NCBI GenBank assembly: GCA_963575745.1
Contig: CAUYUJ010015830.1
Coordinates: forward strand, 10,001-74,000
DNA length: 64,000 bases
Direction: 5' to 3'
From: Prorocentrum cordatum
Lineage: Eukaryota > Sar > Dinophyceae > Prorocentrales > Prorocentraceae
Shown here one piece after another: positions 29,637-64,000 of the stretch. Position 1 is the stretch's first letter, and each line of letters begins with the position of its first letter. Position numbers and translations under genes: made by a program. The notes under the pieces were generated by a model. The model had not been told where the DNA came from. It saw only the letters and a program-made list of their open reading frames with translations, and made no database searches.

Positions 29637-29639
<3 letters not shown>

Positions 29640-32867: not shown

Positions 32868-35192
32868 ATGGGCGACCGATCGACGACCGCGTCGCCAGTC
32901 GACGACCGTGCGGCCAACGGACTGGCAGACACAAGGCATCCTCACCCTGGATCACAGGACACCATCCCGCCAGGGCAGCCGTCGCCCCTCGCCCCCTGGG
33001 ACGTGAACGCTCCCGTCGACGTTGCGTGCACACGAGAACCGATGGCCTTCAGCCAAACGGGAAGACGGGGAGACACGCTCAACCCCGCGATACACACTGA
33101 CATAGCGACCTTCAGTCGCTTCCCTGGGATTGACAACGACAGGCATGACGCCCTCCCGCCTAGCTTATCCCCCTCCCTCACCCCTACCCTTCCCCTGCCC
33201 ATTGCTCGGCGCCCAATTTCCTTCTCTCCTGGCGGCGCAGGGCAGAGCTGGATCGCTCACGGCGATGCCAGGATCACGGGGGGCGAGGGCCCCACTCCAG
33301 AACAAGCGAATCCCCCGACGGACCCAGGTTCGCACGGGTCGCGAACGGACGAGCGACAGAGAGATGCCCCTGACGACCGACCCAGGGGCCTCAACGACGA
33401 AGACGGGGGGACTAGGGTTGGGGCCTCCCCAGAGGGTGACCGCGGGTGCGACAGGAGGGGAGACGGGCAGACGCCTGCCCTGGGACCCGACTCGCATCAC
33501 AGAGGCTTGCGCCTTCACTCCGCCGAGCGCCCCCCCCTGGACACTTCAATGCCGAGAGAAGCAGCCTTCAGCTGCGAATGGGCCAACCCTGCCGCCACGG
33601 AGACCCGTGCCCTCGCCGCGCAGCCGACTTCCCCCGCGGACGTTGACAGAGGGCTTGATGGCTATCGCCGCACCCCCGCCGCCGCCCGCGGATGCAGCAT
33701 AATGGACATAGAAGATGGGCCTTCAGCCCTTGGAGCGACCTGTGAGAGAGCGGATTTGAGGGAGTCTGCTTCTTGGGACTCCTCAAGTCGACTGGCGGGC
33801 GCCGACTGCGACGCGGCGGTCAGTCGCCCCTCCGGCCACTTCCGTAATCCTGAGGACTCTCGTCCGCCTCCCGCCCCACAGGCTGGCAGTCTCAGGCGGG
33901 ACGAACCTCTTGCTCGGGACTCTCACACGGAACGAGCCTTCAGCTCGAGGCTCCAAGGCACATCGAGCAACCTCAGAGGTGACGAGCCTTCAGCTCGAGA
34001 ATCGGAGACGGCATCAATGGTCGTCGGGAGTGCCGCTGGGCATGTGGCCACGAGCGGCGACGGGAGTCGCCGCGCGCCCGCCGCCCTTCCTGGAGTTGAC
34101 AGCACTGCGCACGTAGAGAATGGGCCTTCAGCCCGAGGAGCTCCCAGCGAGACGGCAGTTTTGAGCGAGCCTGCAGCTTGGGACGCCCCAAGCGGACTGT
34201 TCGGCGCCGACGGCGATGCAACGACCAGTCAATTCCCTGGGCACCCCTGGAACCCCGAAGACTTTCGTCAGCCACCCGCCCCACAGTTGGACAGTCGCGG
34301 ATGTGACGAGCCTTCAGCTCGAGATTCTCACGCGGAACGAGCCTTCAGCTCGAGGGCCCAAGGCGTATCGGGCAACCGCAGAAGTGACGAGCCTTCAGCT
34401 CGAGATCCAGAGACAGTGCCACTGGACTTAGAGAGAGTCGCAGAGGCCGTGACCACGAACGGAGACGACTTCGACCCTCCTGGGACTCCTGGTGTTCCCG
34501 TGCTGGGTTCTCCCCATCAGGTGGGCCCTCGCGCCAGCTGCGGGCGACCGACCGACCACGCCGACTACGACGTTGACGGGGCCAGCCCTGCAACGGGATG
34601 ACCCCTGGGAGGGCGCGCCGAAGACCGCGCGGCAGGCGCAGACAGCACTACGAACAGATCAAACGGCTTCCGCCTTGACTCCGCCGCCCCTCTCCCTGGA
34701 GACACGGGCGCTGACGCCAGAGCCGCGCCCAGCCTCCGCGCCGCTAACCTCGCAGAAGAGACTGGCCTTCAGCCAGGAGGAAGAGAGCTAGAGACGGGTG
34801 GGCCTGGCAGCAGTGGCCACAGAGAGGCACGCCCTTCCGCTGAGACGACCGACCGTAACCGACCTTCCCTGGGAACGACGACGGGGTTGTCCATGGGACG
34901 GCCTCACGCACCCACCGCTAACGTGGTCTCTGCTGATCCCGCCGTCGGGACAGGTTCCCTGGTCGATCGGATCGATCACATCGGACCTCCGATCGCTGCC
35001 GCGGGATCGCCTCACGTCTCCCTTCCCTCGCCCACCTGCTCCTCTCCCAAGTTTTCCCCTCCCGACCCACCCCCTGGGCCGGGGCGTCCAGGCGCCCCTC
35101 CGCGCGGCCTTGGCCGCGGCCGCGAAGACCCGTCTCAAGGTCGGGGGCGGGGGCCCCTCATCAGGACGGCCAACGGCTCTTTTTCGTGTTGA
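32868..35192 (+). CDS. ORF A: Ser/Pro/Asp-rich repetitive protein with one in-frame TGA
   Basis: ATG 32868. The frame is open to a TGA at 34599-34601, then stays open in the same frame to 35190, giving about 774 codons. The sequence is low-complexity, hydrophilic and likely disordered. A ~400-bp internal duplication is visible: ENGPSARGAPSETAV...GLFGADGDATTSQ (from about 34110) repeats EDGPSALGATCERAD...RLAGADCDAAVSR (from about 33705), each followed by DEPSARDS and AFSSR motifs. Eleven CTTCA-loop hairpins are embedded in it. There is no known domain. By position it may be a gag-like or RNA-binding ORF1, which is a guess. The TGA could be a mutation or a readthrough site. Confidence 0.55.
33043..34776. 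repeat. Family of CTTCA-loop hairpins with covarying stems
   Basis: Eleven sites have the loop CTTCA between perfectly complementary stems that differ from site to site: TGGC/GCCA (33043), AGCGAC/GTCGCT (33104), GCAGC/GCTGC (33561), GGGC/GCCC (33717, 34122), CGAGC/GCTCG (33933, 33983, 34307, 34338, 34388) and CTGGC/GCCAG (34762). Stem sequence changes while complementarity is kept, so the fold is what is conserved. Two more GCAGC/GCTGC copies lie in a noncoding gap at 51186 and 51215. Confidence 0.8.
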
Positions 35193-35218
35193 GATGAGCG
35201 GCTCCCAGAGCTCCCTTC

Positions 35219-37252
35219 ATGCCCGACCCGCCCTCCTACCCCTCTCCCGACCTTGCCCTGGAGGAAGAACTGCGGAGGGGAAACCAGATCGCCCCCTCGG
35301 AAGCTGAGGACCCCAGCCAAGCCCAGAGAGACAGAGGGCAATACGCTACCGACCTCCGCGCTCGACGGTTGGACGCCACAGGACACGCGAACGCTGACTG
35401 GGCAGCCAGTCGGGAGGCGGGCGGACCCATGCGTGGGCCGCGCGTGGCGGACGCTAGGGTCACTGGCAGGGGGGGCACCATGAACGCCCTCCGCCGCCAC
35501 CTAGTGCGCATCGACGGTCCCTGGCGCGAGATCCCCGATCGAGGGGCACCGAGGACACCGCGCGAGACCAGCAACCTGGAGCTTCTCACGCACCACACGT
35601 GGAGGGGGCATCGCCCTGGTCACCCAGGCATACGAGCAGGCAGCCCCATGCGCGCGGCTCCAGCAGATGCCCTCCTCCCTGGACTTGGTTCGCAACGAGC
35701 CACCTCGGCCCCAACCCTCGCCGTCCTGGACCTCTCCTGGCTTGTTTGGTCCGTCACGGGAGGAGGCTACGAAGGGCGCCTCGGGGGTGTGCAGCCAGAC
35801 CCGATACAGGTCCTCGCCTTTCGCTTTGCGAGCATCACCCATGACCCCAGTATAAGAAGGGAAAGATTGGACGCCGATGATCCCTCCCTAGCGGAAAGGC
35901 AACTAGCGCGTCTCGAATACGTGGCTATGGTCGCTGCAGCGCATTACTGCGACATAGGCATGGAGCTCCCGAGTGGATTCGACACAGACAGGATGCCCAT
36001 GCCCACCAGATCTCCCGATGACGCAGTGCCCCCGCACAGTAGCGGCCCTAACCGACCAGACGGGACCCAGGACCCCATGGATGACGAAATCAGGGCGTAT
36101 GCGCATAGAGTCCTAATTCATGAGCGCAGACAGAACATAGTTCACTTCCTGGACCATGGGGACATCAGACAGTGGGCCATCAGGAGGGGAAATCTTGGAC
36201 GGGTTGGGGATGACGTACACTCGAGACGACAAGCAGGTAGAGGCCCAGTACCATGGGTAGAGCCCGCCCTTACAGGAGTAACTGCCAGCTCAATGGGCAC
36301 CCCTGGGGTACCGATTCAAGGGTGCGACAGTAACGACAACGCATGGCCCTGGTCCACCACAGCGCATCGACTACTGCTGCAGGACTTCTTCTGCCCGACC
36401 CAACGATGCGACTTCTGCGGTTCTTGGATGCTCCAAGAGCCCACTGGACGACACTGCATCACCTGCCACAGGTTGGCTAACCCATGGAGCTACAACCAGG
36501 GTGAGCGGCAATCAGGCGACCTCCCGCAGGGTCACCCAGACGCAGACCCGGAGCAGCCACTCAACCGACGCGCGCTCGACCCTCTGGACACCATCTTGCT
36601 GTTGCAGCTTGTCAGAGCGGGCATGCGGTACGCCCCAGTCGCAGAGCATCTCTACTCCCCAGCCCAACCTGGCCCCTCCGACTTCACCTCGACCTGGCTC
36701 GTGGGCGAACTCATGAGAGCCTGGAGACATATGGTGGCCAAAGCCTCAGGCCTGGCTGAAATCTGGGCGTACGAAGGCACCGTGGGCCTCGAAGACTTTG
36801 GAGGCGATTGGCAACTTCGCACAGCAGCGGTCTCCCTTGCCTTACTCTGCTCCGCGCCAGACTCCTGGGCCCTTCATGTCTGCCAGAAAATACGTCGCGT
36901 CCTCAGGACCTGCCCAGAAGGACGACTAGATGGCTGGTTCCCCCCGCAGCTCTATCGCGACGACCCGAGCACGTACCCGCCATCGCACTGGAGGGGCCCC
37001 CCATCGAGTAGGACAACCGCGACCGTCGCGATAGGGCCGAACACCGTGGCACACCTGGACGATCTCCGCTGGCTAAGCGCCACCATCGGCGGGGACCACC
37101 TGGACCGCGCCATAAGCGACGCACGAGACGGCATGGTCCTCAGCAGACGCTGGTGGCACAACAGAGACAGTCCACACTCCCAGGCAGCCGAGGTCATGAG
37201 AGGTGCGCTACAGGCAGCAGCACGCACCGACTGGCGCCCAATACACGCTTAA
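35219..37252 (+). CDS. ORF B: zinc-ribbon protein of unknown function
   Basis: A true ATG at 35219, 27 nt after the ORF A stop; 677 residues ending in TAA at 37250-37252. A Pro/Arg-rich head is followed by a globular, mostly helical part from about residue 170. A four-cysteine/histidine cluster at about residues 392-416 (CPTQRCDFCGSW...CITCHRL) looks like a zinc ribbon. The C-terminal third (LDTILLLQLVRAGMRY, WLVGELMRAWRHM) is helical. No family is recognised. The stop overlaps the next start (TAATG), so ORF C is probably translated by reinitiation. Confidence 0.65.
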   Translation: MPDPPSYPSPDLALEEELRRGNQIAPSEAEDPSQAQRDRGQYATDLRARRLDATGHANADWAASREAGGPMRGPRVADARVTGRGGTMNALRRHLVRIDGPWREIPDRGAPRTPRETSNLELLTHHTWRGHRPGHPGIRAGSPMRAAPADALLPGLGSQRATSAPTLAVLDLSWLVWSVTGGGYEGRLGGVQPDPIQVLAFRFASITHDPSIRRERLDADDPSLAERQLARLEYVAMVAAAHYCDIGMELPSGFDTDRMPMPTRSPDDAVPPHSSGPNRPDGTQDPMDDEIRAYAHRVLIHERRQNIVHFLDHGDIRQWAIRRGNLGRVGDDVHSRRQAGRGPVPWVEPALTGVTASSMGTPGVPIQGCDSNDNAWPWSTTAHRLLLQDFFCPTQRCDFCGSWMLQEPTGRHCITCHRLANPWSYNQGERQSGDLPQGHPDADPEQPLNRRALDPLDTILLLQLVRAGMRYAPVAEHLYSPAQPGPSDFTSTWLVGELMRAWRHMVAKASGLAEIWAYEGTVGLEDFGGDWQLRTAAVSLALLCSAPDSWALHVCQKIRRVLRTCPEGRLDGWFPPQLYRDDPSTYPPSHWRGPPSSRTTATVAIGPNTVAHLDDLRWLSATIGGDHLDRAISDARDGMVLSRRWWHNRDSPHSQAAEVMRGALQAAARTDWRPIHA

Positions 37253-39153
37253 TGGGGCAAGGTACCCCCCTGGGAAACCTCGTCACAGACGCCGTTATCC
37301 GGCGTCTGGAGACAGACAGTGGTGTCCGTGACCACGAGCGTGCTGGACGTCCCAGCGGTGGACACTCCCCCATGGATGTAGACAACCCCTGGCGCGACGG
37401 GAGGGGCCCCACTGGCGGAGAGGGGGGCGGAGTGACAGCCCCCCACAGACCCCTCCCAGACCCCGTGGAGGACCTATCCCATGCGGAGCGCTCCCAGCGA
37501 GAAGCCTTCATCGATGAGGTGCGGCGAATCAGGAGGATGGTGGCCAGTAACTCCGTCACCCCAGGCACGCGGTGGAGTAGAATCTTGGTCCCCTTCATAT
37601 GGGGCACTGCTACGGACAGGGGTCGGAGCGTGCTCGAGCAGGCATTTAGGACCATCAATATCAGTACTAACATCATCAACCAGGCAGCCACTTGGTGGAG
37701 AGCGCGAGGCGTCTTCTCATACAGGGACGCCCAGGTAGTCCTTGCTTCAGGAGCAGACACATCTTCCAGGGCCACCGGATCCACGCTCGAGGCACCCGAA
37801 GTAGGCAGCTACATTGCACCACAGCTGCAGGAACGAATGATGCTGCACCTAGACACGAATGGCTCCCTTCAGTCCGCCATCCTGTCAGGGGATCGGCAGG
37901 CAGTAGAGGCCGGAGCGAGGTTGCGAGCGGAGCAGGCCAGGACCGAGCAGAGGTCGAATCCAAGAAATCACTGGCCCACGTACGAAGAAAGGGCGCGCCC
38001 TGGAGCAGAGGCCGCTACCGCGGAAGCTGCGAGCACAACCACGCCCTGGCACCTGGACATACGACAGTTGCTCAATCGAGCGAACGTTGCTATCCCTCAG
38101 GGCAGACTGCCACCAGGCAGCACGAGAGAAGAGCACCTGGACAGGCTCATCCGCACATTTGACGCCAGACAGCGAGACGAGGAGGGGGCAGGCAGAGGGA
38201 CCATGCCTGCCCCAGAGGGAAGGACTTCCGTCAACGGCGATCAGGCACAGTGCCTGGCTCAGAGCATGCTGCTAGACCACAGAGCAAACGGGCAACCAGG
38301 CTCCTGGATCTCCAGAGCCCTGTGGCTCTGCCTGGCGCCACACTACTTCCCCCTCCTGAGGCCAGTACTGACTGTGCGGGCGGTGGACTCCTGGCCTTAC
38401 GACGTACTCTACCGTTGGATGACGAGAGCCGAGATGCACGCACCGGAAGACGTGGTTACCTGTCTCCGCAGGGAGGTGCCAGGAGCCAATCTAGCTTCAT
38501 ACTCTGACCTCGCTAACGTGCAAATCCAAGCCCTCATTTGTCACCTCGGCGAGGCGGCCAGCCTGACGCATCCTGATGCTGGTGTCTCCGCCAGAGCCCT
38601 CATCGAGACCCTGGGGGACGGCCTTGCCCAGATTGGCCACCCCCCCGGAGACAGCGCCAGACTCCCCCCGGATAACATGAACGCTGTCGAGGTCCCCCCT
38701 TGGGACCTGGACGTAGGTACTCCCTTATCCATGATCTGCAGCGAAAACATCCAGGGCATCGCAGAAGTCTTGATGCCGTGCGGTCACTTGTTCCACGCCG
38801 AATGTCTGAGCCAGTGGAGGGTGAGCCAGCCAACACAGGCCCACTCCTACGGAAGATGTTTCCCAGTAAACTGCCCTAATTGCCGCTCCAACGACAGGGG
38901 TAGCATCACCGTAAGGCTGCCAGGGCGAGTCTGCGACGCTGATGCCGCCGCCGTGGCGGTACCACCAGACCTGCTGCAACTCCGTGACGGTGCCCTAGCC
39001 CCGCTGCAGCCTTTCCTGGGTCTTCACGAGCTAGCCGAGGTCGTCAGGCACTGGCCCCAGACCTGGACTGCCTCAGAGCGCAGACACTCTCTATTCGACG
39101 GCCCCATACATATGTCACGCTGTCGGACATGCGCAGGATCCACGAGCATGTGA
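37252..39153 (+). CDS. ORF C: RING-finger protein
   Basis: ATG 37252 shares one base with the ORF B stop (TAATG). The frame also extends upstream to a non-ATG codon, but the overlapping ATG is the natural start. 633 residues. After an Arg/Glu-rich and helical body, residues about 496-547 form a RING-H2-type finger: CSENIQG...MPCGHLFHAECLSQW...CPNCRS, with Cys, Cys-x-His, His-x2-Cys and Cys-x2-Cys ligands and a longer than usual loop before the final pair. RING fingers usually recruit E2 ubiquitin-conjugating enzymes, so an E3 ubiquitin ligase role is plausible. A RING protein within a retroelement is unusual. Confidence 0.7.
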   Translation: MGQGTPLGNLVTDAVIRRLETDSGVRDHERAGRPSGGHSPMDVDNPWRDGRGPTGGEGGGVTAPHRPLPDPVEDLSHAERSQREAFIDEVRRIRRMVASNSVTPGTRWSRILVPFIWGTATDRGRSVLEQAFRTINISTNIINQAATWWRARGVFSYRDAQVVLASGADTSSRATGSTLEAPEVGSYIAPQLQERMMLHLDTNGSLQSAILSGDRQAVEAGARLRAEQARTEQRSNPRNHWPTYEERARPGAEAATAEAASTTTPWHLDIRQLLNRANVAIPQGRLPPGSTREEHLDRLIRTFDARQRDEEGAGRGTMPAPEGRTSVNGDQAQCLAQSMLLDHRANGQPGSWISRALWLCLAPHYFPLLRPVLTVRAVDSWPYDVLYRWMTRAEMHAPEDVVTCLRREVPGANLASYSDLANVQIQALICHLGEAASLTHPDAGVSARALIETLGDGLAQIGHPPGDSARLPPDNMNAVEVPPWDLDVGTPLSMICSENIQGIAEVLMPCGHLFHAECLSQWRVSQPTQAHSYGRCFPVNCPNCRSNDRGSITVRLPGRVCDADAAAVAVPPDLLQLRDGALAPLQPFLGLHELAEVVRHWPQTWTASERRHSLFDGPIHMSRCRTCAGSTSM

Positions 39154-39602
39154 GCGGGGGGAGGGCTGCCTTGGAGATGCAACAGGCCCCGATGGACGTG
39201 GACGGAACCCCACCCGACGGTGGAGACGGCACGAACCCCGATGGCACGCAGAGCAGCTCGCAGAGCCCTGGAACCCCGCCGCCACCACGACCCCCCGGTC
39301 CCACCAGCAGGGCAGACAGGATACGGCAAGCTCCGAGGATCACCTTCGGAAGATGGGCCCTACTTCTCGGACGGAATCCACCAGAGGACGAACCCAGGAG
39401 GAGAGGACCTATGCGGTTCCCTGTGGGGCTGCTAACCACGGCGGTCCGGGACATTGCAGCCGATCTGGTAATCTCCAGAACCGCGCACGTCGGCGATCGA
39501 GTAGCCGACGAGACCGGAGTCTCCCCTCGCAGGCCCCGACGCCTGGGAGCAGATCGAAGCTTTGGTCACGGAGCGCAGAGACCAGCCCCCTCCTCATGGT
39601 AG
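39129..39602 (+). CDS. ORF D: small Pro/Arg-rich ORF, likely front part of ORF E
   Basis: ATG 39129 overlaps the ORF C stop (39151-39153) by 25 nt; a second ATG is at 39177 (MQQAPMDVDG). The 157 residues include a Pro/Ser-rich start and ADRIRQAPRITFGRWALLLG. Near 39540 the adjacent frame (AWEQIEALVTERRDQPPPHG) reads better and leads without a stop into ORF E. So D and E may be one protein separated by a 1-nt shift. No domain is recognised. Confidence 0.45.
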   Translation: MRRIHEHVSGGRAALEMQQAPMDVDGTPPDGGDGTNPDGTQSSSQSPGTPPPPRPPGPTSRADRIRQAPRITFGRWALLLGRNPPEDEPRRRGPMRFPVGLLTTAVRDIAADLVISRTAHVGDRVADETGVSPRRPRRLGADRSFGHGAQRPAPSSW

Positions 39603-42600
39603 ACGCGCAAGCTACACAGATGGACGCTGCCCTGGCGGCAGCTTCTGCAGCGGGATGCCCGTGCTGTGTCTCGCCCTGGCCACAGAGGGAGTGCCATCCC
39701 CTGGGGGACCGGACCCCATCGAGCTCGCGACCCTGGCAAACGCACAGTGGGGGTACCGAGCGACCAGCAAGATCACTCACCTCGTCCCGATCGGTTACCC
39801 CTACCGAACCGGCAAGCCCAGCCCACCAATGCAGCAGCTTTTTGCGGCGCAGTTCGACATAGCAGGCAGGGCACTTCGCGCAATTCTGCCTCCGCCAATA
39901 GTCGTACACTGGGGAGGGAGATCTGGGGACACCTCCGACGCTCTACACATCCTAACCCCCGAGAGCGGCAACGACGGCGTCGTCGCGCAGATCATGCGGT
40001 GGAAGGAAGAACTAAGACAATCCTGCAACGGTATGATCACGGCCGAGTGGGTCACCACGAGAGTACAGCTCCCCAGAGACGAACTTCTAAGGCACCAGGG
40101 ACTCGAGATGCTCTTCCATCATGTACTTCGCTGTCGGGCAGCGAGGCCTATGAGTGGAGAGGACGGCCTACGCGCCCCTCTGGACAGCTTACAGGCGGCA
40201 GCTCAAATCACCACGATGGCCCACCAGACGGCGTGCATCTGGAGAACCCACGAGACGAGTGACTCAGTGCACATCCCAGTTCCCCCCAGAGCAATATGCT
40301 TAGCCCACTCCATTGCTTCCGCGACAGCCGGGGCCATGGGGCACAGAGTGGGAATTTGCGGGACAGGGCTTCTCCTGCTCGCTACTCCAGAAAGGATCGC
40401 TGCCCCTGTCCTGAGGCACCTCCGGGACGAACTCCCGCGTATTTTTGGAGACGGATCCTCCTCACCAGCACTAGGACCACGCCGCATCCTCCTGGAAGGA
40501 CCCTGGGATGGTGGACCCTCATTCGTACGCCTTTCCGACCCCGAGGATGGCATCCACCTGCGGTGGAACCTTGCAGACATGGGACAAACACGGCCGGGTG
40601 ACGTCATGCAAGCCGTAGAGGCCACCACCGGACCTGACACTGTCGAGCAGGTCTCCACCGTGTACGCCTGGTTCCCAGACGTCTCTGACTACAGGTACAT
40701 GGCACAAGTTCGCATACGCCTGGCGGCGGCCGATGCCATGGCAGCTGCCTTTGTAGGCACCAGCTGCATAGTGATCGGAGCCCAGACTATCAGGGGTTTC
40801 CCCGCGACGCCAAGCAGGGATCCCATGCACAGAGCGGCCGCGGTACCCAGGGAGCAACAGGAGCACGTGGATGCCCTGGCCAGCACCTCCGTCCGGCAAG
40901 CCCCCAGGCGCGCCATTCAGCCCCAAATACTCGAGATCACCACGATGGATAGGCACGGGGCTCAGCTTGGAGAAGTTCGCCTTCGTAGCATGCGCCCAGA
41001 TGCGTGGCTCCCTGGGCACAGCACGCTCCAGCTCTACTCAGCCGCGGTCGGCTCGGCGAATGCGCAGATACGAACTCGGCTCTGGCCACTGCCGGACGGC
41101 CCGAACGGTACCTCGCACCCAGCCAACACCAGGGCCGCCCCACCTGTCATCACAGACGACTGGCTCCGGGACAACGCCAGGGCAATGAGCAGGAGTGCGC
41201 CCAACACGGTATCCAATGAGTTTCATGGAGGAGGCCTGCGGGACTACGAGACGGTCCTCCAGCCTGGAGAATACCTGCTCGCGGCAGTAGCGGCCGGTGG
41301 AGCCGTCGAGGTCACCGCGAGCGGCGAAGCTGGATTCCTCTTCACCTCAGTCCCTACCTGGGTGACGATACTCCTCCCCGCGGACCCAGACATTCGAGCA
41401 GCAGCAAGAGGTGCAGACAGACCACAAGCCAGACTGAAACTGCAGCTTGCAGCTGGTCCAATCCACGTTGCACGCCTGGACTCCGCCCCCGCGGCGACCC
41501 CAACTCCCGCCTCCGTGGGGCTGCGGGTCAGCGCACCTTCCCAGCAACCGCTCCCCAGGCGCACCACCGCATCCCTCAACCCACTCCCTGGACCAGCCAG
41601 GCCCACGCACTTCCCAGAACTAGCCGAAGTGCTCGCGAGCGCATGTAGACCCTCTCCGGCCGACCTGGTACGAGCTGACGAAGACGCAGTAGGCATCGCG
41701 CGGGGCATGTTGGGTAGATTCGCTGCAGTTGTCCCTGAGCAAGCGGTCCACGACATAGCACGGGGCGTGCAGCGCCGGATCGCTCTCGAAATCCGAAGCC
41801 AACTGGAAGGCCGGCCCATACAGAGGTACAACTGGGACATGTTTGCCGCAATCTGGATCCTGCAGCTAGCCAACTCGGGGAACCTGGACCGTGACCACGT
41901 GTGGCAACTCATCGGGGAGCTCGGAATTCGAGAGGAGGTCACGAGACAGCTCACTTTCACGCAATGGCTCGCGCCTGAACCCGACGCCACTTATTCAGCA
42001 CACCAGCCATGGCTCGAAGTCCCTGGATCCAGAGGTGCAGACGTTGACGCCGCCACCACGCATCCCATCCCAGAGAGTGTCACCAGCGCCCTGGGCGCCC
42101 TGATCAACAGGCTCTCAATCCTCCACTGGGAGGAGCGGCAGCGCCGCGATCCTGGTAGGGTGTCCCGGGGGCGGAGAGGAGGCTCCCAGGCAACCAGAAC
42201 CACGTGCGCGGGGGACAGGCCTGTTGACCCTCCAGGTGTAAACGAGCGCAGAAGCCGCAGCCGGGCGAACAACGAGAGGGGAGTCGCAGGCGCGCAAGCC
42301 AGCGACGTGAGGCCGTCAGCCACCCCAGTTCCTGGATCGACTGCTCTCCCGACAGGCCCTGGGTTGACGACTGCGCCGACAGCGCAGACAAGGACAGGCC
42401 CCAACGGTGGATCTAATGCCAGTCCTGCTATGAACGCCAGTGGGACACAACCACAGACCTTGTTAGCTGCACCTGACCAGGGTGCGACACCACCATCCCT
42501 GGCCAGGTCGCCAGGTGGCAGAGAGGTGGACAACGACGAAGGCTGCGAGGTTAACATCAGGCAAGCTCCCCCGCGGGTGACCCCTGTGAATCCCACGACA

Positions 42601-43547: not shown

Positions 43548-44182
43548 GACAGTAGAGGCCTCTGCAAGGAACCTCCGCAGATCTGGAAACACCGCCCGAC
43601 GCGGTGGCACGCCCAGACGTGCACGCACCCCGGCTGAGACTATCGTGAACACAGCAGACACCGCTGGCCAGACGCGGCCGAATCAGAAGCGCGGCCGGGT
43701 CGCGACTGCCCGAAGCCAGCGCCCAGCCGCACAGCACCGCCGCTGACAGGGCGCACAGGAGCCCGTCCCGCCGAGCCCCCCGGGGCAGGACGGAAGGCAC
43801 ACGTAGGATTTCACTGCGAGGCACGGCTCGAGCCCGAGCAGCAGGCAACACCAGCAGGGAAAGGTCCACCAGACCAGGCACCAGGGCACCCAATCCCAGG
43901 ACCCTGGTCGACCTCTGGGAGCGCTCCCGCCACAGAGCAGGCGAAGGCACCCCCACCGGCGTCGCCGGCCGAGGCGTCACAAGGAGGGCATCCAGGCCAG
44001 CAAGTGCGGAGGACGGCCGGACTCGCAGGCCGCGACCCCGACCAGCGGGGTTCTCACCAGACGAGCCCACTGCAGCCCCCCAGCCTGCCGATGTGCTCCA
44101 GCAGGTATGGGAACGACACAGGGGCGGACGGACTGGCCTCTCCCCAGTCGCCCCTGCTGACACGACGCTTGCCGCGTACTAA
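43548..44182. other. Frame-broken linker between ORF F and the methyltransferase
   Basis: This is Pro/Gly/Arg-rich, coding-like sequence in shifting frames. The frame of the methyltransferase is open here (PADVLQQVWERHRGGRTG) until a TAA at 44180-44182. The sequence CGTACTAAATCGCAG at 44174-44188 also resembles an intron branch point and 3' splice site, so an intron boundary cannot be excluded. Confidence 0.4.
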
Positions 44183-51229: not shown

Positions 51230-51260
51230 AGCCCTGGGACCGACGCGACGCCCTGGGATC

Positions 51261-53059: not shown

Positions 53060-53313
53060 TTTCGGCTCGCGAGGTGCCGCCCCTGTGGGAGCCTGCCAGC
53101 GCAGGCGAGGGGCCCCCCCGCGCGCGCCGAGATCAGCGCTCGGCCACGGCGCCTCCCCGCGAGGACGCCGCGCATCATCGAGCGCGACTTCGCCGTGCGG
53201 CGGATCGCGCCCTGCTGCACGCCTGGGCGGGGCGCCGCTCGCCCCGTCTGCTCGCGCAGCTGGAGGGTGCCGCCCGACGGCTACAAGAACACCACGGATC
53301 GTCGCCAGGCAGA

Positions 53314-54558: not shown

Positions 54559-54559
54559 C

Positions 54560-57500
54560 ATGACCCGCTTGCCCCAGGTATCAGGATTGCAGATATCCCA
54601 GTCACAAACAGTGGCGCCTCCTCCGCCAGCTGACGCTGCAGGGTCCCATGTGATTGAGATTTTCAACTCCAACGCGGGTAAAGCTACACTCAAGAAAAGA
54701 TTGCAGGCCACTTCGTCCCTCATCGTGATGGCTCAGGAGATTGGATATCATGATTGGGAATGTGAATCCCTAAGTACATGGTCTCAAGCTCACGGATGGC
54801 AGGCATTGATCCTCCCAGGTGTTACTGGAAGTGGCAGGCTGGCGGCTGCTGGAGTGGCCGTCTTCGCGAGGATCGGAGTGGGCTTGCGAGGGCCCGTCTA
54901 CCCATCAGGAGAGTTGCAGACGCGACGCAGTCAGACACAGAGTTGTATTGCTTTTGGGTCTGAGCTTGTTCCTCATCGGGCCCAGCACGTGGTCATTGAC
55001 GTACCTGGGTGGCCCTCTTTCAACCTGTTCAATGTGTACTTGCACACGGCTGAGGGCATGTCGGCCAGGAACGCAAAGATCCTGATGAACGTGGGCATCG
55101 CTTTGGCTGGGCAGCTAGGGCCTTCCATCATCGGCGGTGACTGGAACATGTCAGCCATGGAGGTGGAGGAGTCGACCTTCCCCAGGCATGCTCATGTTGC
55201 TATCGTGCAGCCGTCGGAGGTTACATGTAGAACAGCGAGTGCCAACACCACCATCGATTTTTTCGCCATGACATCGGCGGCAATACGGTTGGTCAAAGAA
55301 ATCCGTGTTGATCGTAGATGGCCTATCAAACCTCACCGTCCCGTACTGGTCGAGCTGTCCACCATCGGGCACAAGCTGCAGTACCTCACCTACACGGGGG
55401 GGCCCAAGCTTGCTGCAGCCGTTGTTCCAGGCCCCATGCTTCCTGAGCCCGACTGGAGTGACGAACGTTGCTATGCGGATGCGGCTGTTGATATTGCAAT
55501 GAATGGCGAGGTTGACGCTGCGTGGCAGTTCCTTGGGCAGGCGTGGGCTAAGTTTGCGACCAAACTGGGTGCGAGGCTCTCTCACCTCACAGGCTCCGAC
55601 GTGACGCAGGTGAACGGTTACGCCAACTCTGTGCGCCCACGGTGGGTGGATTATGAATATGAAGGCAAAGATGCTGAAGGAGTTCAGTGTTTAGCTGATG
55701 GTTGGAAATGGTTCCAAGACGGTCTTCAGGGTATTGCTGTGCTCAAGTCTTCCAGGGGCAACGGCGACCAGGACAAGCTACGTGACGAGATCCTCGGGTT
55801 TCAGGCAACTCAGTACCCTGGGCAAGGTCTTTGTCACAGACTTGATGCTACGGTCGTGCAGGCCCGGCGACTGTTATCTTCAGCGGCTTCATCAGCGGCT
55901 GACATCGAGTTTCTGCTTGAAGAGGCTTATGAGGACATTCGCTTGTCGAAGCAGGCTGCCGATCGCGATAGTGCGGCGAGCTGGAAGGAGTGGTGCGACG
56001 GTGCCAGTCAAAACGGGGCCGGGCGGCTCCATCGGGTCACGGCCTACAAGCATGTGCAAGCCCCCACGATTATCACGGACAAGCACAGCATTTTCTCGGC
56101 GCACCCTCAGCGCATCGTGGAGGACATGGAGGCCAAGTACAGGAACCTGTGGAAGGCTACGTCCGAGGCGCCATTGGCATGGGTGCCCGACCGATCGGCC
56201 CTGGTTAGAGCATCGCCGAGTCAGATACGCTCTGCTTCTCGCTCTTTCCCCACGAGGACGTCCAGCAGCTTAGATGGATTTCGCCCTTCGCATTTTCAGC
56301 ACGTCAGTGATGAAGGCTTGGAGGTTTTGGGCAGGCTCTGGGAGGCAAGCGAACGTATCGGGCTTCTTCCTCGGCAGCTCACGTGGATGGTCATGCCCAT
56401 GCTGCCCAAGAGTATGGGAGGCCATCGCCTCATCATCTTATACTCAGCCAGTTATCGTGTGTGGCAGCGTGCTCGAAGGCCAGAGCTCCAGGTGCTCCAG
56501 CGTACTATTGAGCGGAAGTACTGGGGCGCCTCGTCAGGCAGGAGTGCCGTGGACAGCGCGTGGCTACTTGCGGCTAGGACGGAGGCCAGCACCATGCAGC
56601 ATAGGCACACTGCCACCGTGATTGCGGACTACAGCAAGTACTATGAGACCATACCCTTGGACATGGTGAGGGACAGACTCATCAGGCTAGGGGCGTCGAC
56701 TGCGCAGATCAAATTGGTTTACAATCAGTGGAAAGGACCTCGCATCATTCGGCTACGATCTCACCATGGGGGTCGTCCTTGTCATGCCGTCGATGGTCTT
56801 CCTGCAGGAGACGGGTATTCGGACATCGTGATCAAGGCACACGCGGTGGAGGAGTACGACAGGTACGTCACGCTTTTCCCCCTTGTCCGCTTCTCGTCTT
56901 ACATTGACGACGCGTCTCTGGGCCTGGAGAGTGGCTCCAAGAAGATGGTCATTGAGCTCGCGGTTGCTGCTGCTGAAGGATTCCAGGATACAGCTAAACG
57001 TCTTGGAGCCTCTCTCAATGACAAGTTTGCGGTGATCGGCAGCTCAAAGGACATAACTGACGAGATTGTCCACAGGCTAGGGGTCGATGGCAAAGCAGGC
57101 ATGCGTTCTACACCTTATCTTGGCACCGACTTTACAGGAGGACGATCAAGAGGAGCTCCGAAGACTCGTGGCAAGTACAGGCAGAGGCTTAACCATCACT
57201 CTATGCGATTACGCAAGCTCCAGAAGTTCAGGCGGGCCATCCCGACGCAGGCCACTGTCAGGGTGGGGCGTATCTACCGTACGGGGGCTCGGCCTGCCCT
57301 CACTTACGGCGTGGAAGTGAACGGGGTCAACGACAGCGAGTTAGACAAGCTGCGCCAGTCGTACAACAAGTACCAGAAGCCTTATCACGGGGGTGTCTCT
57401 GGAAGTGCTAAACTGGTTCTACTTGGCGATCCAGCCGTCAAAGAGGCTTTCGCGCCTGCGATTCAATGGTGCCGCATGCTGTGGATATCTCAAATGCAGC

Positions 57501-59581
57501 CTCAGGTCTCGATCGTGACGACGGCGACTTTGCAGCGTTGGTGGAAAGCAGCGGTGCAGGATGTAGGTGTGCTCGGTAAATGGTCACACACGAAAGGCCC
57601 TCTGCAACGGGCGGCTCTATCCATTCAGCGTGCTGGATGGAGTGTGGTCTCAGGAACAGAATGGCGGAATCATTGTGGAGAGATTGTTCGAGTTGATCAG
57701 CTCACCCCGCCCATGCTGCTGAAGTTGCTGGAGACGGGCCTCTTACGCCAACACGAGCTTAGATTGGGTCAGAAATGGTTCAATGATGCGGGGACGCGTG
57801 TGTCCATGGATTTTCTGCGGGCTCAAGCTCGACCTAAGAGTCGCAAGTACACCACATACCAGAAATTCTGCATCAACTCCTGCGCTGTCGCGGGGGTCTG
57901 GACCAAGGCTCGTGCCAAGGCCGAAGGCTACATCACGGACGGGAAGTGTGCATGTGGTGCCGTGGATACGCTGGCGCATAGGCTTGCTGATTGTCCCCTT
58001 CCTCAGGTTGCTGAAGCTCGTCAGGCTGCAGAGGCACCCCTTGAGTTGCTCCAGTGGATCCGTGATAACCCTGATGAGCGTACTCACCTCAGTGGCTGCT
58101 TCGCCTTTCATGATGAGGACATTCCCCCGATGAACGAGGGAGTTCAGGCGTATGTGGTGGATGCACAAGGCCACGAATCTGCTGCTACACCAGACAACAT
58201 GGTCGCCTTTTACCTGGGAGCAGATGTTGAGTTGGCCGAGTTTGCGATCGACGGCTCTTGCTCCAAGCCGGGCTTGGAAACACTGCAGCGCGCAGGGTGG
58301 GCTGTCACATTATTGGACCCACAGTCTGATGTTCCTCTATGCTCTATGTATGCGCCTGTTCCGTCCACTCTGCCACAGACGACTGCGATGGCGGAATATC
58401 TGTCGTTTGCATTTACTGCTCAAGCGGCTGATCGCCGCTGCTGGGCCTATGCGGACTTCATGGGGACAGTTAAAGCAGCTGCGGCATCCAGGGACAAGCA
58501 GCTCGCCGTCAACTCCATCTACGGTGGGGTCATGGCTTTCGCTCGCGAGATGGAGGGCTTCAGGCACATTGAGAAGGTCGCGCATGTCAAGGCTCATCGC
58601 TCGGGGGAGGAGTATGCCCAGCTCACCCCAGACGTTCGTAGGTTGACGGATGCGAACGTCGTCGCCGACACGTGCGCCAAAGCGGGAGCCCAAGTCCATG
58701 CTGCTGTAGACCCTGATTTCCAGGAGCGAATGGACGCCAGTCAGAAGCGCACGGCTCAGCTGGCAAGGCTCATCGCACATGTTCTACCTCTCTTTCCTAA
58801 AGATGAAGAAAGATGGAGGAGGGCGACCACTGGCTTCAAGAAAGTACGGAGTACTCGCACGCAGGGCTGGCACCAGTGGATTGACACGGACATGGGGCAG
58901 CAATGCTCGCAGTGCCTGCAGCTTCGTCGGCATGGTGAACATGATGAGCTCACTGGCTGCAAAGGCACGCCACCGTTCTTGGCAGATTTCCTGCAGAACC
59001 CCTTGGGTCACAAGCTCATTGCGGTCAACCAGAAGGGCGACCTCACATCAGTCAGTGGTGGCACGGTATTCGTCTGTGTCGGCTGTGGGGCTTGGGCTCA
59101 ACAGAGGAGGAAGCTCAAGTTACGGTCGCAGTGTGTCGCCCCAACCAGTAAGGGAGCTGAAGTTCTGTACAACTTACGGCATGGGGTTGGCCCTCATCGG
59201 AAACTTGCGAAGTTCATTGATGCCACCGTCCAGCTCAAGAGGTTGGTGCGCGAGGAGGTCAAGCCAGTCCAAGTCAAGACAACCATCAAGCGTGCCGATC
59301 CTGAGGGACCGTACACGTTCGAGGTCAGGATGGCGGCTCTGCATAATCGCATCAAACAGAAGGAACAGGAGCGCCAACGACGTGATGATGAGCGTAACAC
59401 TATATTTGGGCGGAGTTCTCTGTTTCAGCGAGCAGGCGATACTGCTCAACCTTCTGCTACTGGGATTTCTGCTCAGCCTGAGGATCTCAGACATGCTGGC
59501 CGAGGAGCTGCTATCAGTACTGCTTTTTCAGCTGCTGGTGGTACTGCACAGACTGGTGGGAGTTTTTATTTCTCAGGCTGA
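54560..59581 (+). CDS. LINE-C ORF2: EEP endonuclease, reverse transcriptase, zinc knuckle, RNase H
   Basis: ATG 54560, one base after the ORF1 stop (TAGCATG); an in-frame ATG at 54518 is the alternative. 1,673 residues without interruption. EEP at about residues 30-270: EIFNSNAG, VMAQEIGYHD, FNLFNVYLH, IIGGDWNMSAME and TIDFFAMTS; the usual SDH is replaced by PHRPV. RT at about 560-880: SSLDGFRPSHF, motif A IADYSKYYE (Asp about 690), GDGYSD, motif C YIDD (about 781). Zinc knuckle CACGAVDTLAHRLADCP at about 1130. RNase H at about 1224-1390: FAIDGSCS, MAEYLSFAF, YADFMGTV and VVADTCAKAG supply the four acidic positions. Intact and probably functional; target-primed reverse transcription is its expected role. 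Confidence 0.9.
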   Translation: MTRLPQVSGLQISQSQTVAPPPPADAAGSHVIEIFNSNAGKATLKKRLQATSSLIVMAQEIGYHDWECESLSTWSQAHGWQALILPGVTGSGRLAAAGVAVFARIGVGLRGPVYPSGELQTRRSQTQSCIAFGSELVPHRAQHVVIDVPGWPSFNLFNVYLHTAEGMSARNAKILMNVGIALAGQLGPSIIGGDWNMSAMEVEESTFPRHAHVAIVQPSEVTCRTASANTTIDFFAMTSAAIRLVKEIRVDRRWPIKPHRPVLVELSTIGHKLQYLTYTGGPKLAAAVVPGPMLPEPDWSDERCYADAAVDIAMNGEVDAAWQFLGQAWAKFATKLGARLSHLTGSDVTQVNGYANSVRPRWVDYEYEGKDAEGVQCLADGWKWFQDGLQGIAVLKSSRGNGDQDKLRDEILGFQATQYPGQGLCHRLDATVVQARRLLSSAASSAADIEFLLEEAYEDIRLSKQAADRDSAASWKEWCDGASQNGAGRLHRVTAYKHVQAPTIITDKHSIFSAHPQRIVEDMEAKYRNLWKATSEAPLAWVPDRSALVRASPSQIRSASRSFPTRTSSSLDGFRPSHFQHVSDEGLEVLGRLWEASERIGLLPRQLTWMVMPMLPKSMGGHRLIILYSASYRVWQRARRPELQVLQRTIERKYWGASSGRSAVDSAWLLAARTEASTMQHRHTATVIADYSKYYETIPLDMVRDRLIRLGASTAQIKLVYNQWKGPRIIRLRSHHGGRPCHAVDGLPAGDGYSDIVIKAHAVEEYDRYVTLFPLVRFSSYIDDASLGLESGSKKMVIELAVAAAEGFQDTAKRLGASLNDKFAVIGSSKDITDEIVHRLGVDGKAGMRSTPYLGTDFTGGRSRGAPKTRGKYRQRLNHHSMRLRKLQKFRRAIPTQATVRVGRIYRTGARPALTYGVEVNGVNDSELDKLRQSYNKYQKPYHGGVSGSAKLVLLGDPAVKEAFAPAIQWCRMLWISQMQPQVSIVTTATLQRWWKAAVQDVGVLGKWSHTKGPLQRAALSIQRAGWSVVSGTEWRNHCGEIVRVDQLTPPMLLKLLETGLLRQHELRLGQKWFNDAGTRVSMDFLRAQARPKSRKYTTYQKFCINSCAVAGVWTKARAKAEGYITDGKCACGAVDTLAHRLADCPLPQVAEARQAAEAPLELLQWIRDNPDERTHLSGCFAFHDEDIPPMNEGVQAYVVDAQGHESAATPDNMVAFYLGADVELAEFAIDGSCSKPGLETLQRAGWAVTLLDPQSDVPLCSMYAPVPSTLPQTTAMAEYLSFAFTAQAADRRCWAYADFMGTVKAAAASRDKQLAVNSIYGGVMAFAREMEGFRHIEKVAHVKAHRSGEEYAQLTPDVRRLTDANVVADTCAKAGAQVHAAVDPDFQERMDASQKRTAQLARLIAHVLPLFPKDEERWRRATTGFKKVRSTRTQGWHQWIDTDMGQQCSQCLQLRRHGEHDELTGCKGTPPFLADFLQNPLGHKLIAVNQKGDLTSVSGGTVFVCVGCGAWAQQRRKLKLRSQCVAPTSKGAEVLYNLRHGVGPHRKLAKFIDATVQLKRLVREEVKPVQVKTTIKRADPEGPYTFEVRMAALHNRIKQKEQERQRRDDERNTIFGRSSLFQRAGDTAQPSATGISAQPEDLRHAGRGAAISTAFSAAGGTAQTGGSFYFSG

Positions 59582-59590
59582 GCAAGCTAC

Positions 59591-59880
59591 CTTGAGCCGT
59601 CGAGCGTTTTCAGAACTGCGAGGCGCCTCTGTGGTGGTGGCTCAGTGTTTCCCCCAGCCAGGCGAGGGGTTAAAACTGAGGCGGGTATGCGCTCATCAAC
59701 GCTCCCCCCTGCCAGGCGAGGGGTTAGGCCTGTGGCTTGAGCCGTCGAGCGTTTTCAGAACTGCGAGGCGCCTCTGTGGTGGTGGCTCAGTGTTTCCCCC
59801 AGCCAGGCGAGGGGTTAAAACTGAGGCGGGTATGCGCTCATCAACGCTCCCCCCTGCCAGGCGAGGGGTTAGGCCTGTGG
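59591..59880. repeat. Perfect tandem duplication, 2 x 145 bp, at the LINE-C 3' end
   Basis: 59591-59735 and 59736-59880 are identical as far as I can read. Each unit contains GCCAGGCGAGGGGTTA twice in near-identical form and begins CTTGAGCCGTCGAGCG. It lies just after the ORF2 stop, so it is 3' UTR and possibly the RT recognition region. Perfect identity implies a recent origin. Confidence 0.93.
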
Positions 59881-59959
59881 CGAGCAGCTCGAGCTCGCCT
59901 TCCTCGTCCACACTGGAGCCCGACAAGGTTTGCAGAGAATAGAGCCAGGAACGGCGTTC

Positions 59960-60229
59960 ACGCTCCTGGCCAGCTTCGTCGTGTTCACCCTGAACCAGCT
60001 GTCCAGAGCGTGGAGGTCAATTACCCGCTGCTGCGGGACATCGACGCGTAATTTGTTTCTTGGAAACTGTGCAATGGGCTGCCGCCCGCATTTCGTCGAG
60101 TTCTCTTTCTTTTCAGGCACGACGAGCTCGTGCGCGATGCCGCCTACGCCATGGTCTTCGTGGCGATCCAGGGGCGGCACCAGGGCGACCTCATCTGAGA
60201 GAGCCCTGCTCGGGCGGTCGGACCGCCCG
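59960..60229 (+). other. Possible captured gene end: two coding pieces separated by a 69-nt GT-AG intron, then a 3' hairpin
   Basis: A frame ending LRRVHPEPAVQSVEVNYP...DIDA meets GTAATTTG at 60048. An intron ending TTCTTTTCAG at 60116 would join it in frame to HDELVRDAAYAMVFVAIQGR...DLI and a TGA at 60196-60198. Twelve bases later CGGGCGGTC-G-GACCGCCCG (60211-60229) forms a 9-bp hairpin, followed by a T-rich stretch to the target-site duplication. This could be a 3'-transduced host gene end or the native element tail. The protein is not recognised. Confidence 0.5.
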
Positions 60230-60264
60230 TCGGATCCCATCGTGGGTTTTTTCTTGTCTTGTCT

Positions 60265-60280
60265 TTTCTCTGACGACGAG
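60265..60280 (+). repeat. Right copy of the 16-bp target-site duplication flanking LINE-C
   Basis: Identical to 53044-53059. The helicase frame continues directly from it as FSDDEISDATGSVFQ. Confidence 0.85.
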
Positions 60281-62816
60281 ATTTCGGACGCGACAGGCTC
60301 CGTCTTCCAGAGGGTGCGCCCCGCTCCCAGCATGGACACCTTCCGCGACAGGGTGGACAAACACAAGCCGAACAGCGACGCGACCAAGGCCCTTCAGGCC
60401 ACCCTGCATCACCACGCCGTACTAGTGCACGGACCCCCTGGGACAGGCAAGACCACCTTCTCTGTAGCTTGCCTGGACATGTGGGGATGTTGCTTACGCC
60501 CGGGGCAGGCAGTTGCGTTGGCCGCTGGTTCCAACACAGCGGTTGACCAACCAGCTCTGGCGATGTCCGAAGCACATCGGCAACAACGCCTCGATCCAGA
60601 CACGGGGTTCCCTGGGAAGTTCGCGCGCCTGGCAAGGAAGGAGCGTGTCAACGAGGTACTCGTCGACCTGACACCTGATGGCCACTACAAGAACGCCCGC
60701 GGGGAATTCCCGTTCCAGGACGGGGACAAGAGCCAGGACTTCAGGCCCTACAAGGCGAACCTACTACGAGACGCCAGGGTAATCATGTCCACACACGAGG
60801 CGGCCGAGGCCCTCGGACAGAAGGACAGCCCCCACATTGTCCTCCTGGTAATCGACGAAGCTGGACAGGCCACGGAGCTCCACGCGCTCATGTCTATGGT
60901 AAACCTGATCAAGAGCGGCGGGGCCCTCGTCCTGGTGGGTGATCCGAACCAGTTGCCCCCTACGGTGCTCTCCAAGCTTGCGAACGACCTGGGACTCTGC
61001 GTTGGCATTTTCGAAAGAATGTTCCACGCACTCCGCGGCCAAGAGTCGGCCGTGGTCCACCTTTCGATCTGCTACCGCATGCATCCGCAGCTACTTGCCT
61101 TTTCCGAACGCAGCCTGCTACGGCAAGGGCACGACGTCCGGCATCTTGGACCCGCTCAGGGACAGGCCCATCGTCGAAGGCATCCCATGGAGAGACATTA
61201 CACCCTGGGAACCCGGACGACTGACACAGCTGGCGTCTCTCACCGGTTCCGGCGAGAACGACCTCCGCACGCCCCTTGAGCAATTGGACCCACCGCCAAA
61301 CGGAGACAAGCACCGCTTCCTGCTGGTCGACACACCCTCCTGGGAAGTGACGTCTAACCTCCAACCAGGCTGCGCCAACCTCCCCGAAGCAGCACAGGCC
61401 GTGGACATCGTGCGGGCACTTCTGCCCGAGCTCGAAAAAGGCACCTCCGTCAGACTTGTGGTTGGCTACCAGCTTCAGACGGCTATCCTCGCGGATGGCT
61501 GGCCGCAGGGTCCCCGCCATCTCTCCGGCGTCCTGCGAAGTTCTAAAGGTGGCAAGAAGGGGAAGTCAGGCAAAGGGAAAGGCGGCGCCACTCGCGACGG
61601 ACAAGACACCCTCGGCCCTGGACCCCCCCCTCAAGGCCACAAGGTGGACGTTCAACGGTGGGAAACCGTCTTTCGGGAGGACCACAACGCCCATACAGCC
61701 ATCGGCACCTCTTTCCCTGGACTCCGGCAGGTTGCGGGCGAGCACATGAAGAGTGGGGCGCTCAAGCTCACCACCATAAACTCCAGCCAGGGAGGGGGGG
61801 CGGACATCGTAATTGTACTAACTACGAGGAGCAACGGGAGCCACAACTGGGGCTTTGTCGACGACGCCAAACGCCTGAACGTGGCGATCACCAGGGCCAA
61901 GCGGAACATCCTGATCTTGGGAGACGGGCGCATGTTCGCTAATGCCACCTGGTCCCAGCTGCGCGTGCTCTCTGAATGCGGGCGCCTGACCTGCCTCTGG
62001 GTTCGCTTCCGTGGCAGTGCCCCCGCGGGCCACAGGAGTTCCCCGGTCATCGACGAGAGCTTCGACCCACTGCACGACCTCGCCTCCTGGGTACCCTCAC
62101 CTATTGCCTGGAGCTGCGACGCAAAGGGGGAGAGCGGACAAAGTGAGCTGGACGCGGCCAAAAAGAAAGCACGTGACGCCCAGGCTACTGGTTTCGCCGA
62201 GCGCTACAACACTCCCCTGGATGAGCACTTCGACTGGGACTCCCTGGGGAAGCTAATCTCGGCCGGCCTCAATGATATTCTCTCGATGCCTGCCTTCCAC
62301 GTGCTCATCTATTTGGTGTCAGGGCTGCGCCCGCACGAGTTCTCACTGGCTGAGACACCGCGACAACCGGGCAAACTCGACCGCAAGGCGTGGTCGCACT
62401 TGGGCTTCCTGTTCGACATGTCCCTGGGGCTAGACGCAACCAATCTAGTTTACAACATGCTCTGGGCCGCAATGGTGTGGACGCTCGGCCCGGGCACCCC
62501 CTGGCATGACGCGAACTACGCAATCCACGACGACTCCCTTCCACCGGTGCCACACGTCAGAGGGAGACGTGTAACACTCTGTGGACGGCGCCAGTGTACC
62601 CCCAAGGGGCTCTTCCGGCAGGTTCCCAAGGCGTGGAGCACTGCTACCAAGGACCGCTGCAGGCACAGGAAGCACCCTGGAATGGCCGGGCTACAGGACA
62701 TCCTCCGTGGCGCGTCCGACGGCTCTAAGCGGGACGAGATCCGTAAGGAGATCATAGACACCGACGGCCCCTCCCCATGGAATCCTGCAAGGCCCGGCCG
62801 CTCTTGGTCGTCATGA
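60281..62816 (+). CDS. SF1 (UPF1-like) helicase, ATPase core and C-terminal part
   Basis: It continues the frame of 52058-53059. Motif I GPPGTGKT (60431-60454), NTAVDQ (motif Ia), motif II DEAGQATE (60854), motif III GDPNQLPP (60938) and motif IV YRMHPQLLAF (61072). A one-base excess in TTTT at 61100-61103 shifts the frame; the rest (FPNAACYGKG onward) runs to 62816. Motif V INSSQGGGADIVIV (about 61780) and motif VI RLNVAITRAKRNILILGD (about 61870-61925) complete the SF1 set. The TTRS after motif V and the ITRAKR form fit the UPF1/SETX group of RNA/DNA helicases. The C-terminal ~280 residues are unrecognised. Helicases are exceptional in LINE-type elements. The gene is dead here because of LINE-C. 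Confidence 0.85.
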
Positions 62817-64000
62817 TGCTCATGCTCCGCGAGCCGCGCGTGTTCCTGTGGCCCTTCTCCTACGCAGAGCAGACCGGGGACGTCATCGAAGCCATCCTGG
62901 GATTCTGTGTCCCCTGGCAAGGGGCGCATCGAGGGTTCCGACGCGACTTTGCACGAACCTGGAGCCTCACGTTAGACGACCTAGCCGACCTCCACGGCCG
63001 CATCGAGGCAATCCTGCCCCACATCTCCAAGCTCGTGGCGGTGGCGCACCACCACCCGGATGCGCGGGCAGCCGGCTGCCCGCAGACCTGGAGTGAAATG
63101 GACAGGCAGGATTTTCAGCTGAAAGCGCCGATGCTCGTCCTCGAGAAGATCGTCCCGGCCGCCGCTCTGGCTTCCCTGGGTGCGCACCGCTGCTCGGTGT
63201 GCGCGCTACACGTCGCGCTGGCGGGAACCGACGCCTCCCTGGGTGCCGACGATCGGCTTGCGGGGCTCGCATACATCGGCGGCGGATTCGCCTTATCCAA
63301 TACCGACCTCAACGCCCCCTTGCCGCCCACCCCCGCCCCAGGCACCAAGCAGGACCCTCCATACATTCCTGACGAAAGGCTCGCACCCGAGCAGAAAAAC
63401 GGCAGGTTCAGGTGCGACAGGTGCGGGAGGGACCAGCTACGCTCCACCGATGGCACGTGGATCTCCGACGACACGCGCCTGATGGTCGCTCAGAATAGGC
63501 CCCAGGCCTACCTCAACGGCGCAAACATGGGGTGGCACTGCGAGACCTGCTGGATACGATACCTGGAGGATCAGGGCATTCCATCACCGGCAGGTGCGAC
63601 AATTGCCGACAAGGTCAAGGAACACGAGCAGCAGAGGGCGGGTGCCGCTAGCAACGACAAGGCGGATGCTCCCCCCTCCCTGGGCCACCTCCCACTTGGC
63701 TTTGGATGCAGCCCCCAGGCGGACACGAGAACGCTATCTGACCTCATCATGACGCCGACGGGCATGCAGATCCCTGAGCGTGCCAACACCACCATTCCCA
63801 TCCTACGGATCCGAGACGAACGGTTCGGCCTCAAAGCTGCCCAGAGCCAAATCTACTCCGCCCGGTGCGACACATGCCCCCCGGGGGCTCCGCTCCTCGT
63901 CTGGAACGCAGGGGCCCCGCCCCTGGGCTGTTTCATATGGAAGCCTGCAGAAGGGGTAGGGGTGCCCGAGCAGGCCGGGCTGCCTCCCATCGACAGGCGA
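62813..64000 (+). CDS. ORF I: zinc-binding protein of unknown function, continues past the window
   Basis: ATG 62813 overlaps the helicase stop as ATGA; a second ATG is at 62816 in the same frame. 396 codons with no stop before the edge (MMLMLREPRVFLWPFSY...). Two cysteine sets, CSVCALHV near residue 128 and CDRCGRDQL...HCETCWIRYL at about 201-250, suggest a zinc ribbon or treble clef. Another pair is in CDTCPPGAP near 355. No family is recognised. Composition and the CCCTGGG word match the upstream ORFs, so it belongs to the same unit. Confidence 0.6.
   Translation, partial: MMLMLREPRVFLWPFSYAEQTGDVIEAILGFCVPWQGAHRGFRRDFARTWSLTLDDLADLHGRIEAILPHISKLVAVAHHHPDARAAGCPQTWSEMDRQDFQLKAPMLVLEKIVPAAALASLGAHRCSVCALHVALAGTDASLGADDRLAGLAYIGGGFALSNTDLNAPLPPTPAPGTKQDPPYIPDERLAPEQKNGRFRCDRCGRDQLRSTDGTWISDDTRLMVAQNRPQAYLNGANMGWHCETCWIRYLEDQGIPSPAGATIADKVKEHEQQRAGAASNDKADAPPSLGHLPLGFGCSPQADTRTLSDLIMTPTGMQIPERANTTIPILRIRDERFGLKAAQSQIYSARCDTCPPGAPLLVWNAGAPPLGCFIWKPAEGVGVPEQAGLPPIDRR

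Follow-up and report, generated by a model that had tools for sequence, protein, structure and literature searches.

A candidate giant methyltransferase-bearing LINE in the dinoflagellate Prorocentrum cordatum

Long interspersed nuclear elements (LINEs) are usually viewed as compact, with one or two open reading frames (ORFs). A cytosine methyltransferase (DNMT) next to the reverse transcriptase (RT) of dinoflagellate LINEs has already been published as SymbioLINE-Dnmt (de Mendoza 2018); as described there, the methyltransferase has a separate ORF, which precedes the one for endonuclease, RT, and RNase H, and the tested enzyme gave no de novo DNA methylation in yeast, with RNA methylation suggested (PMC5890265). 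Helicase-bearing LINEs are known from insects, in which the TRAS/R1 elements are described as having the RT followed by an SF1 helicase, within a tobamovirus-like domain fused to ORF2 (PMC4686597, PMC6338049). Giant retroelements are known from rotifers and planarians: the account of these presents the Terminons of bdelloid rotifers as multi-ORF, Penelope-type, telomeric elements that reach 40 kb and possess accessory enzymes and hammerhead ribozymes but no endonuclease domain, and the planarian Burro elements as giant, Gypsy-like long terminal repeat (LTR) elements with ubiquitination-related extra domains (PMC6431247). Finally, the cistrons of the LINE SART1, described as only bicistronic, are joined by a stop-start overlap of the kind that serves reinitiation (PMC5972666).

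Here we describe a locus within a 64,000-nucleotide stretch of Prorocentrum cordatum DNA (contig CAUYUJ010015830.1, positions 10,001 to 74,000 of the forward strand), which we refer to as the window. The presence of spliced-leader sequences marks the host as a dinoflagellate. The plus strand carries a run of long ORFs from ≈35.2 kb to the window end, as an initial annotation of the window had proposed, and on balance we favor reading 32,658 to beyond 64,000 as a single copy, old and broken, of a giant DNMT-bearing dinoflagellate LINE. The features of this unit, and of a second LINE nested in it, are the following:

32658 to 32696, plus strand: tandem pair of spliced-leader relics (pattern match), likely the 5' end of the unit
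32697 to 35218, plus strand: 5' region, including the initially annotated ORF A and extending further, probably non-coding and hairpin-rich
35219 to 37252, plus strand: ORF B, 677 residues, no known family; cysteine pairs give it a zinc-binding look by eye
37252 to 39153, plus strand: ORF C, with a RING finger at its C terminus
39129 to 42702, plus strand: ORF D, ≈1190 codons, no known family
42699 to 43547, plus strand: ORF E, coding doubtful by codon score
43649 to 45753, plus strand: DNMT region
45802 to 51148, plus strand: EEP endonuclease-RT-RNase H ORF, with two frame changes (≈46336 and 50.2 kb)
51149 to 51260, plus strand: spacer of 112 nucleotides from the RT ORF to the following ATG, with two CCTTCAG hairpins
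51261 to 53059, plus strand: segment from the ATG after the spacer to the nested LINE
53060 to 60264, plus strand: younger nested LINE (ORF1, and ORF2 with an RT), outside the unit
60281 to 62816, plus strand: SF1 helicase core and C-terminal part, UPF1/SEN1-like, with one frame change at ≈61.1 kb
62813 to 64000, plus strand: zinc-binding ORF, continuing past the window edge

The unit is probably a giant variant of the known DNMT-LINE, with which it shares a dinoflagellate host and a DNMT ORF directly upstream of the EEP-RT-RNase H ORF, a likeness of ORF layout rather than of compared DNMT sequences. It differs from SymbioLINE-Dnmt as described in having extra cistrons before (B, the RING ORF, and D) and after (the helicase and the zinc-binding ORF) the shared block, a hairpin-rich 5' region, and a length above 24 kb; where that element stops at two ORFs, the additional ORFs on both sides here share hairpins and a similar codon usage with the RT block, in a single copy. 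Unlike in TRAS/R1, no virus-like SF1 helicase is fused to the RT ORF, which ends at 51148, and the helicase is a separate ORF. The Terminons differ in that an EEP endonuclease is present here and no hammerhead, nor any other Rfam family, matches at gathering score anywhere in the window. The Burro elements differ in being of LTR type, whereas here the RT ORF contains an EEP endonuclease, in a stretch that stops short of the unit's 3' end. The initial annotation knew of no element with this gene set. That view stands for the combination with a RING ORF, which no paper retrieved in searches of open-licence PMC papers joins to DNMT-LINE or helicase-LINE features, but not for DNMT with RT (PMC5890265) or for helicase LINEs (PMC4686597, PMC6338049), both already known.

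The central ORF combines the three domains of an EEP-type LINE. RVT_1 matches in 45957-50795 (E 6.3e-7), the RNase H family RVT_3 in 50357-51145 (E 1.5e-5), and, at the N terminus, Exo_endo_phos_2 at E 0.045 in the window copy and at 5e-4 in a relative, P0002. A protein search in which 7994 candidates were scored found two relatives, P0001 (1811 residues, 62%) and P0002 (1791 residues, 50%), each a single intact ORF with EEP endonuclease, RT (YVDD), and RNase H. Because the same protein is spread over three frames in the window, the copy here is broken at two places; its end at 51148 matches that of the relatives. Plasmids yielded no relative of the RT and prokaryote genomes none of the RT alignment, collections that, like the viral contigs considered below, are not expected to contain dinoflagellates.

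The methyltransferase is divergent. Its region comprises a doubtful part (43649-44179), an in-frame stop at 44180, catalytic stretches (44183-45136), another break after 45137, and a candidate C-terminal part (45321-45752) that was judged by eye and has no family match. The catalytic stretches match Pfam weakly (PF00145, E 0.29), no NCBIfam family, and PHROG DNA methyltransferase families at E 5.6e-4, 0.015, and 0.03. They also contain SLFDGWG, GLPCTDLS, CEG, and RDRLWLSN, which we take to resemble C5-methyltransferase motifs, and the assignment is based on these motifs together with the best PHROG match. Comparison with PDB sequences gave nothing at E 1, and a poor single-sequence fold model (pLDDT 46.7) gave no PDB structure match at E 0.001 or better. 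The protein search with the 318-residue query came back empty, which is no evidence of absence: candidates above ≈556 residues went unscored, and the query was probably too short because the reading seems to extend to ≈45.75 kb.

Upstream, ORFs B and C are open. The RING finger of C is supported by Pfam zf-RING_2 (E 4.5e-7, in 37153-39150), and B and D have no family match at E 0.1 or better in Pfam, NCBIfam, or PHROG. The start codon of C overlaps the stop of B (TAATG), and the first ATG of D lies 22 nucleotides upstream of the stop of C; D changes frame once, at ≈39.5-39.6 kb. For ORF E, the codon-score interval includes 0 and wrong frames score similarly; coding between 42.7 and 44.2 kb (E and F) is doubtful. 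Downstream, the two halves of the SF1 helicase match AAA_11 (E 5.3e-27, in 59930-61276) and AAA_12 (E 1.8e-18, in 60939-62813), with SEN1 and UPF1 structures as the best solved relatives. The helicase has a stop at 52658 and occupies several frames in all. An in-frame ATG of the last, zinc-binding ORF overlaps the helicase stop (ATGA), with an earlier ATG at 62777.

The gene content first annotated is partly borne out: RING finger, DNMT (weakly), EEP-RT-RNase H, SF1 helicase, and zinc-binding ORF are present, ORF A drops out as probably non-coding, and E and F are doubtful. Long, overlapping ORFs are indeed there, but the count of ten or so is too high as a number of genes because the RT polyprotein is split among three frames and the helicase among several. 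A further correction is that frameshifts and stops mark this copy as a fossil. The suspected insertion is real: a 7.2-kb LINE (RVT_1, E 3.5e-6) sits within the helicase gene between two copies of TTTCTCTGACGACGAG, at 53044 and 60265, a 16-bp target duplication where 60 shuffles reach a maximum of 12. With 437 and 1626 codons uninterrupted in its two ORFs, the nested LINE is the younger, and sequencing error alone is less likely as the cause of the outer breaks. Two identical 145-nucleotide tandem copies lie 3' of its last ORF. Measured from the leader relics up to the window edge, the run is ≈24.1 kb long once the insertion and one duplication copy are subtracted, in agreement with the size above 24 kb first claimed.

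At the left, the unit appears to begin with two leader relics, CCGTAGCC-TCC-GGCTCAAG at 32658 and CCGTAGCC-TCT-GGCTCAAG at 32678. The pattern CCGTAGCCN{1,6}GGCTCAAG has 3 matches in the window versus 0 in 100 shuffles. Genomic leader relics are described as a mark of DNA copied back from trans-spliced mRNA, in a retrogene survey that reports an absence of leader variants (PMC12014239). In both tandem relics, TCC or TCT replaces the ATTTT of the leader loop. The pattern scans, within their sensitivity, found no additional relic between 32696 and 64 kb, and the stretch before the relics shares no repeat of at least 11 nucleotides with the rest of the window.

The 5' region that follows contains a 300-nucleotide stretch repeated 405 nucleotides further on (75%). 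ORF A (32868-34601) was ruled out as coding, with flat codon positions, no codon signal, and hairpins inside; the best similarity among the window's own ORFs, nested ORF1 against ORF A at E 0.037, was taken as chance. Of 22 CCTTCAG sites in the window, counting both strands, 11 lie in the 5' region (33046-34772) and 2 in the RT-helicase spacer (51190 and 51219), and all 13 of these have stems of at least 4 bp, versus 1 of the 9 sites elsewhere (stem 4 in that one, stem 1 in the other eight). CTTCA is the most frequent 5-base loop on a 4-bp stem, with 14 occurrences against 4 for the next loop; 12 shuffles gave 0-2 CTTCA loops and at most 7 of any loop. Both sides of the stem are changed in four of five pairs, with covariation of 0.742 versus 0.259 in shuffles. 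The hairpins are local, as the hairpin stretches fold no better than shuffles (z -1.24, 0.45, and -0.17). This family, with its constant loop and varying stems, may be an RNA signal of the element.

The strongest competing explanation, which we nevertheless consider unlikely, is a SymbioLINE-Dnmt-like element of ordinary size (≈43.6-51.2 kb, DNMT ORF plus EEP-RT-RNase H ORF) beside or inside other genes, with the RING/D and helicase/zinc ORFs belonging to a separate element or to genes. Hairpins of the same kind flank the RT block, at 33.0-34.8 kb on the left and at 51.2 kb on the right, and speak against it, as does codon usage, which in D and the helicase core is near that of the RT. The synonymous codon distance from the RT is 0.64 for D, 0.60 for the C-terminal part of the helicase, 0.73 for C, and 0.78 for the last ORF; to three other LINE ORFs it is 1.21-1.26. 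Under a codon model of the RT versus one of other LINEs, B, C, D, the DNMT, RNase H, two helicase parts, and the last ORF score +0.070 to +0.110 nats per codon, with intervals all above 0, and the RT scores +0.080 under a model of D plus helicase. Nor was a target duplication seen at the supposed ends: none of at least 12 nucleotides is shared between 42.5-44.3 and 51.1-52.1 kb, in a test that recovers the duplication of the nested LINE. The longest is 11 at the two-ORF ends (60 shuffles reach 12) and 10 at RT-only ends (shuffles reach 13), although old copies may have lost target duplications.

Another reading is a cluster of host genes or retrogenes, all read the same way, between which LINEs have inserted; unidirectional gene groups and retrogenes tagged with the leader are usual in dinoflagellates (PMC11453091, PMC12014239). 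We regard such a cluster as improbable in view of the overlapping ORFs (B/C and C/D), the short gap after the RT, the lack of known families for B and D, and the description of polycistronic expression in dinoflagellates as rare, polyketide synthase genes excepted (PMC11453091). Five ORFs used as a host-gene codon control score -0.080 to +0.027, although they are not proven genes and only one of the five has a Pfam match, a weak one. Least credible of all is a fragment of a large endogenous DNA virus containing a LINE, a notion suggested by the occurrence of RING, DNMT, and SF1 helicase in large viruses. A report of endogenous viruses in a dinoflagellate exists (PMC12721341), but viral contigs held no relative of the RT, the RT alignment, D, the helicase, or the DNMT at pattern-scan sensitivity, Pfam and PHROG scans of the unit's ORFs found no viral hallmark gene, and codon usage is near that of the RT.

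One long retroelement, as initially proposed, is thus probably the best reading, given the 5' leader relics, the hairpins flanking the RT block, the related codon usage, and the stop-start overlap. Several points weigh against it: it is drawn from a single copy, no target duplication was seen at the unit's boundaries, the right end examined is the window edge, with the unit's 3' end beyond 64,000, and a search with the helicase turned up no element relative. The case is weaker on the helicase side, and movement of the 24-kb run as one unit is unproven, though suggested by the favorable signs in the sequence.

Were the unit a single element, its RNA would receive the dinoflagellate leader at the 5' end by trans-splicing, and the tandem relics would imply two rounds of copying. 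The 2.5-kb hairpin-rich 5' region may function at the RNA level, most likely by offering an element protein a series of sites to bind in particle assembly or translation. One long RNA would encode B, C, D, DNMT, EEP-RT-RNase H, helicase, and zinc-binding protein, made partly through stop-start reinitiation at TAATG. The EEP domain would nick the DNA target, the RT copy the RNA at the nick, and RNase H remove the RNA; the helicase could clear structure from the 24-kb template or resist decay, the DNMT could methylate the new copy (cDNA) or RNA, and the RING protein could turn over host factors. More tentatively, we propose a class of LINEs above 24 kb, expressed as a single trans-spliced RNA of some seven cistrons, DNMT, RING finger, and UPF1-like helicase among them, with stop-start reinitiation and CCTTCAG hairpins as its own RNA signals. 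If so, a 24-kb RNA would have moved together with a methyltransferase, a ubiquitin-ligase-like protein, and an RNA helicase of its own, taking target-primed copying far beyond its known size and complexity, and dinoflagellate LINEs would offer a model for retroelements rewriting host DNA methylation. The hairpins would provide a cheap sequence tag for finding and delimiting copies.

Elsewhere, the window has 56-68% G+C per 2-kb step, and a tRNA scan of it found none. An exact dinoflagellate spliced leader, CCGTAGCCATTTTGGCTCAAG, occurs at 29638 and a copy with one mismatch at 11577 (0 expected for each, 100 shuffles). The former stands in 29638-30040 together with a long CAT repeat before it and a short lysine-rich ORF after it (91 residues from 29765), a probable retrogene; the latter, in 11577-12173, is immediately 5' of a 191-residue ORF without a Pfam match. 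A 103-nucleotide repeat fills 26223-27174 in eight copies (62-89% to the reference copy), its 48-nucleotide core present in nine, spaced ≈101-102 nucleotides apart. On the minus strand, 3045-11262 holds open frames of 2068 residues (weak RT match, E 0.028) and 685 residues (zinc-finger-like matches), with codon usage close to that of the nested LINE's RT, and is probably another LINE.
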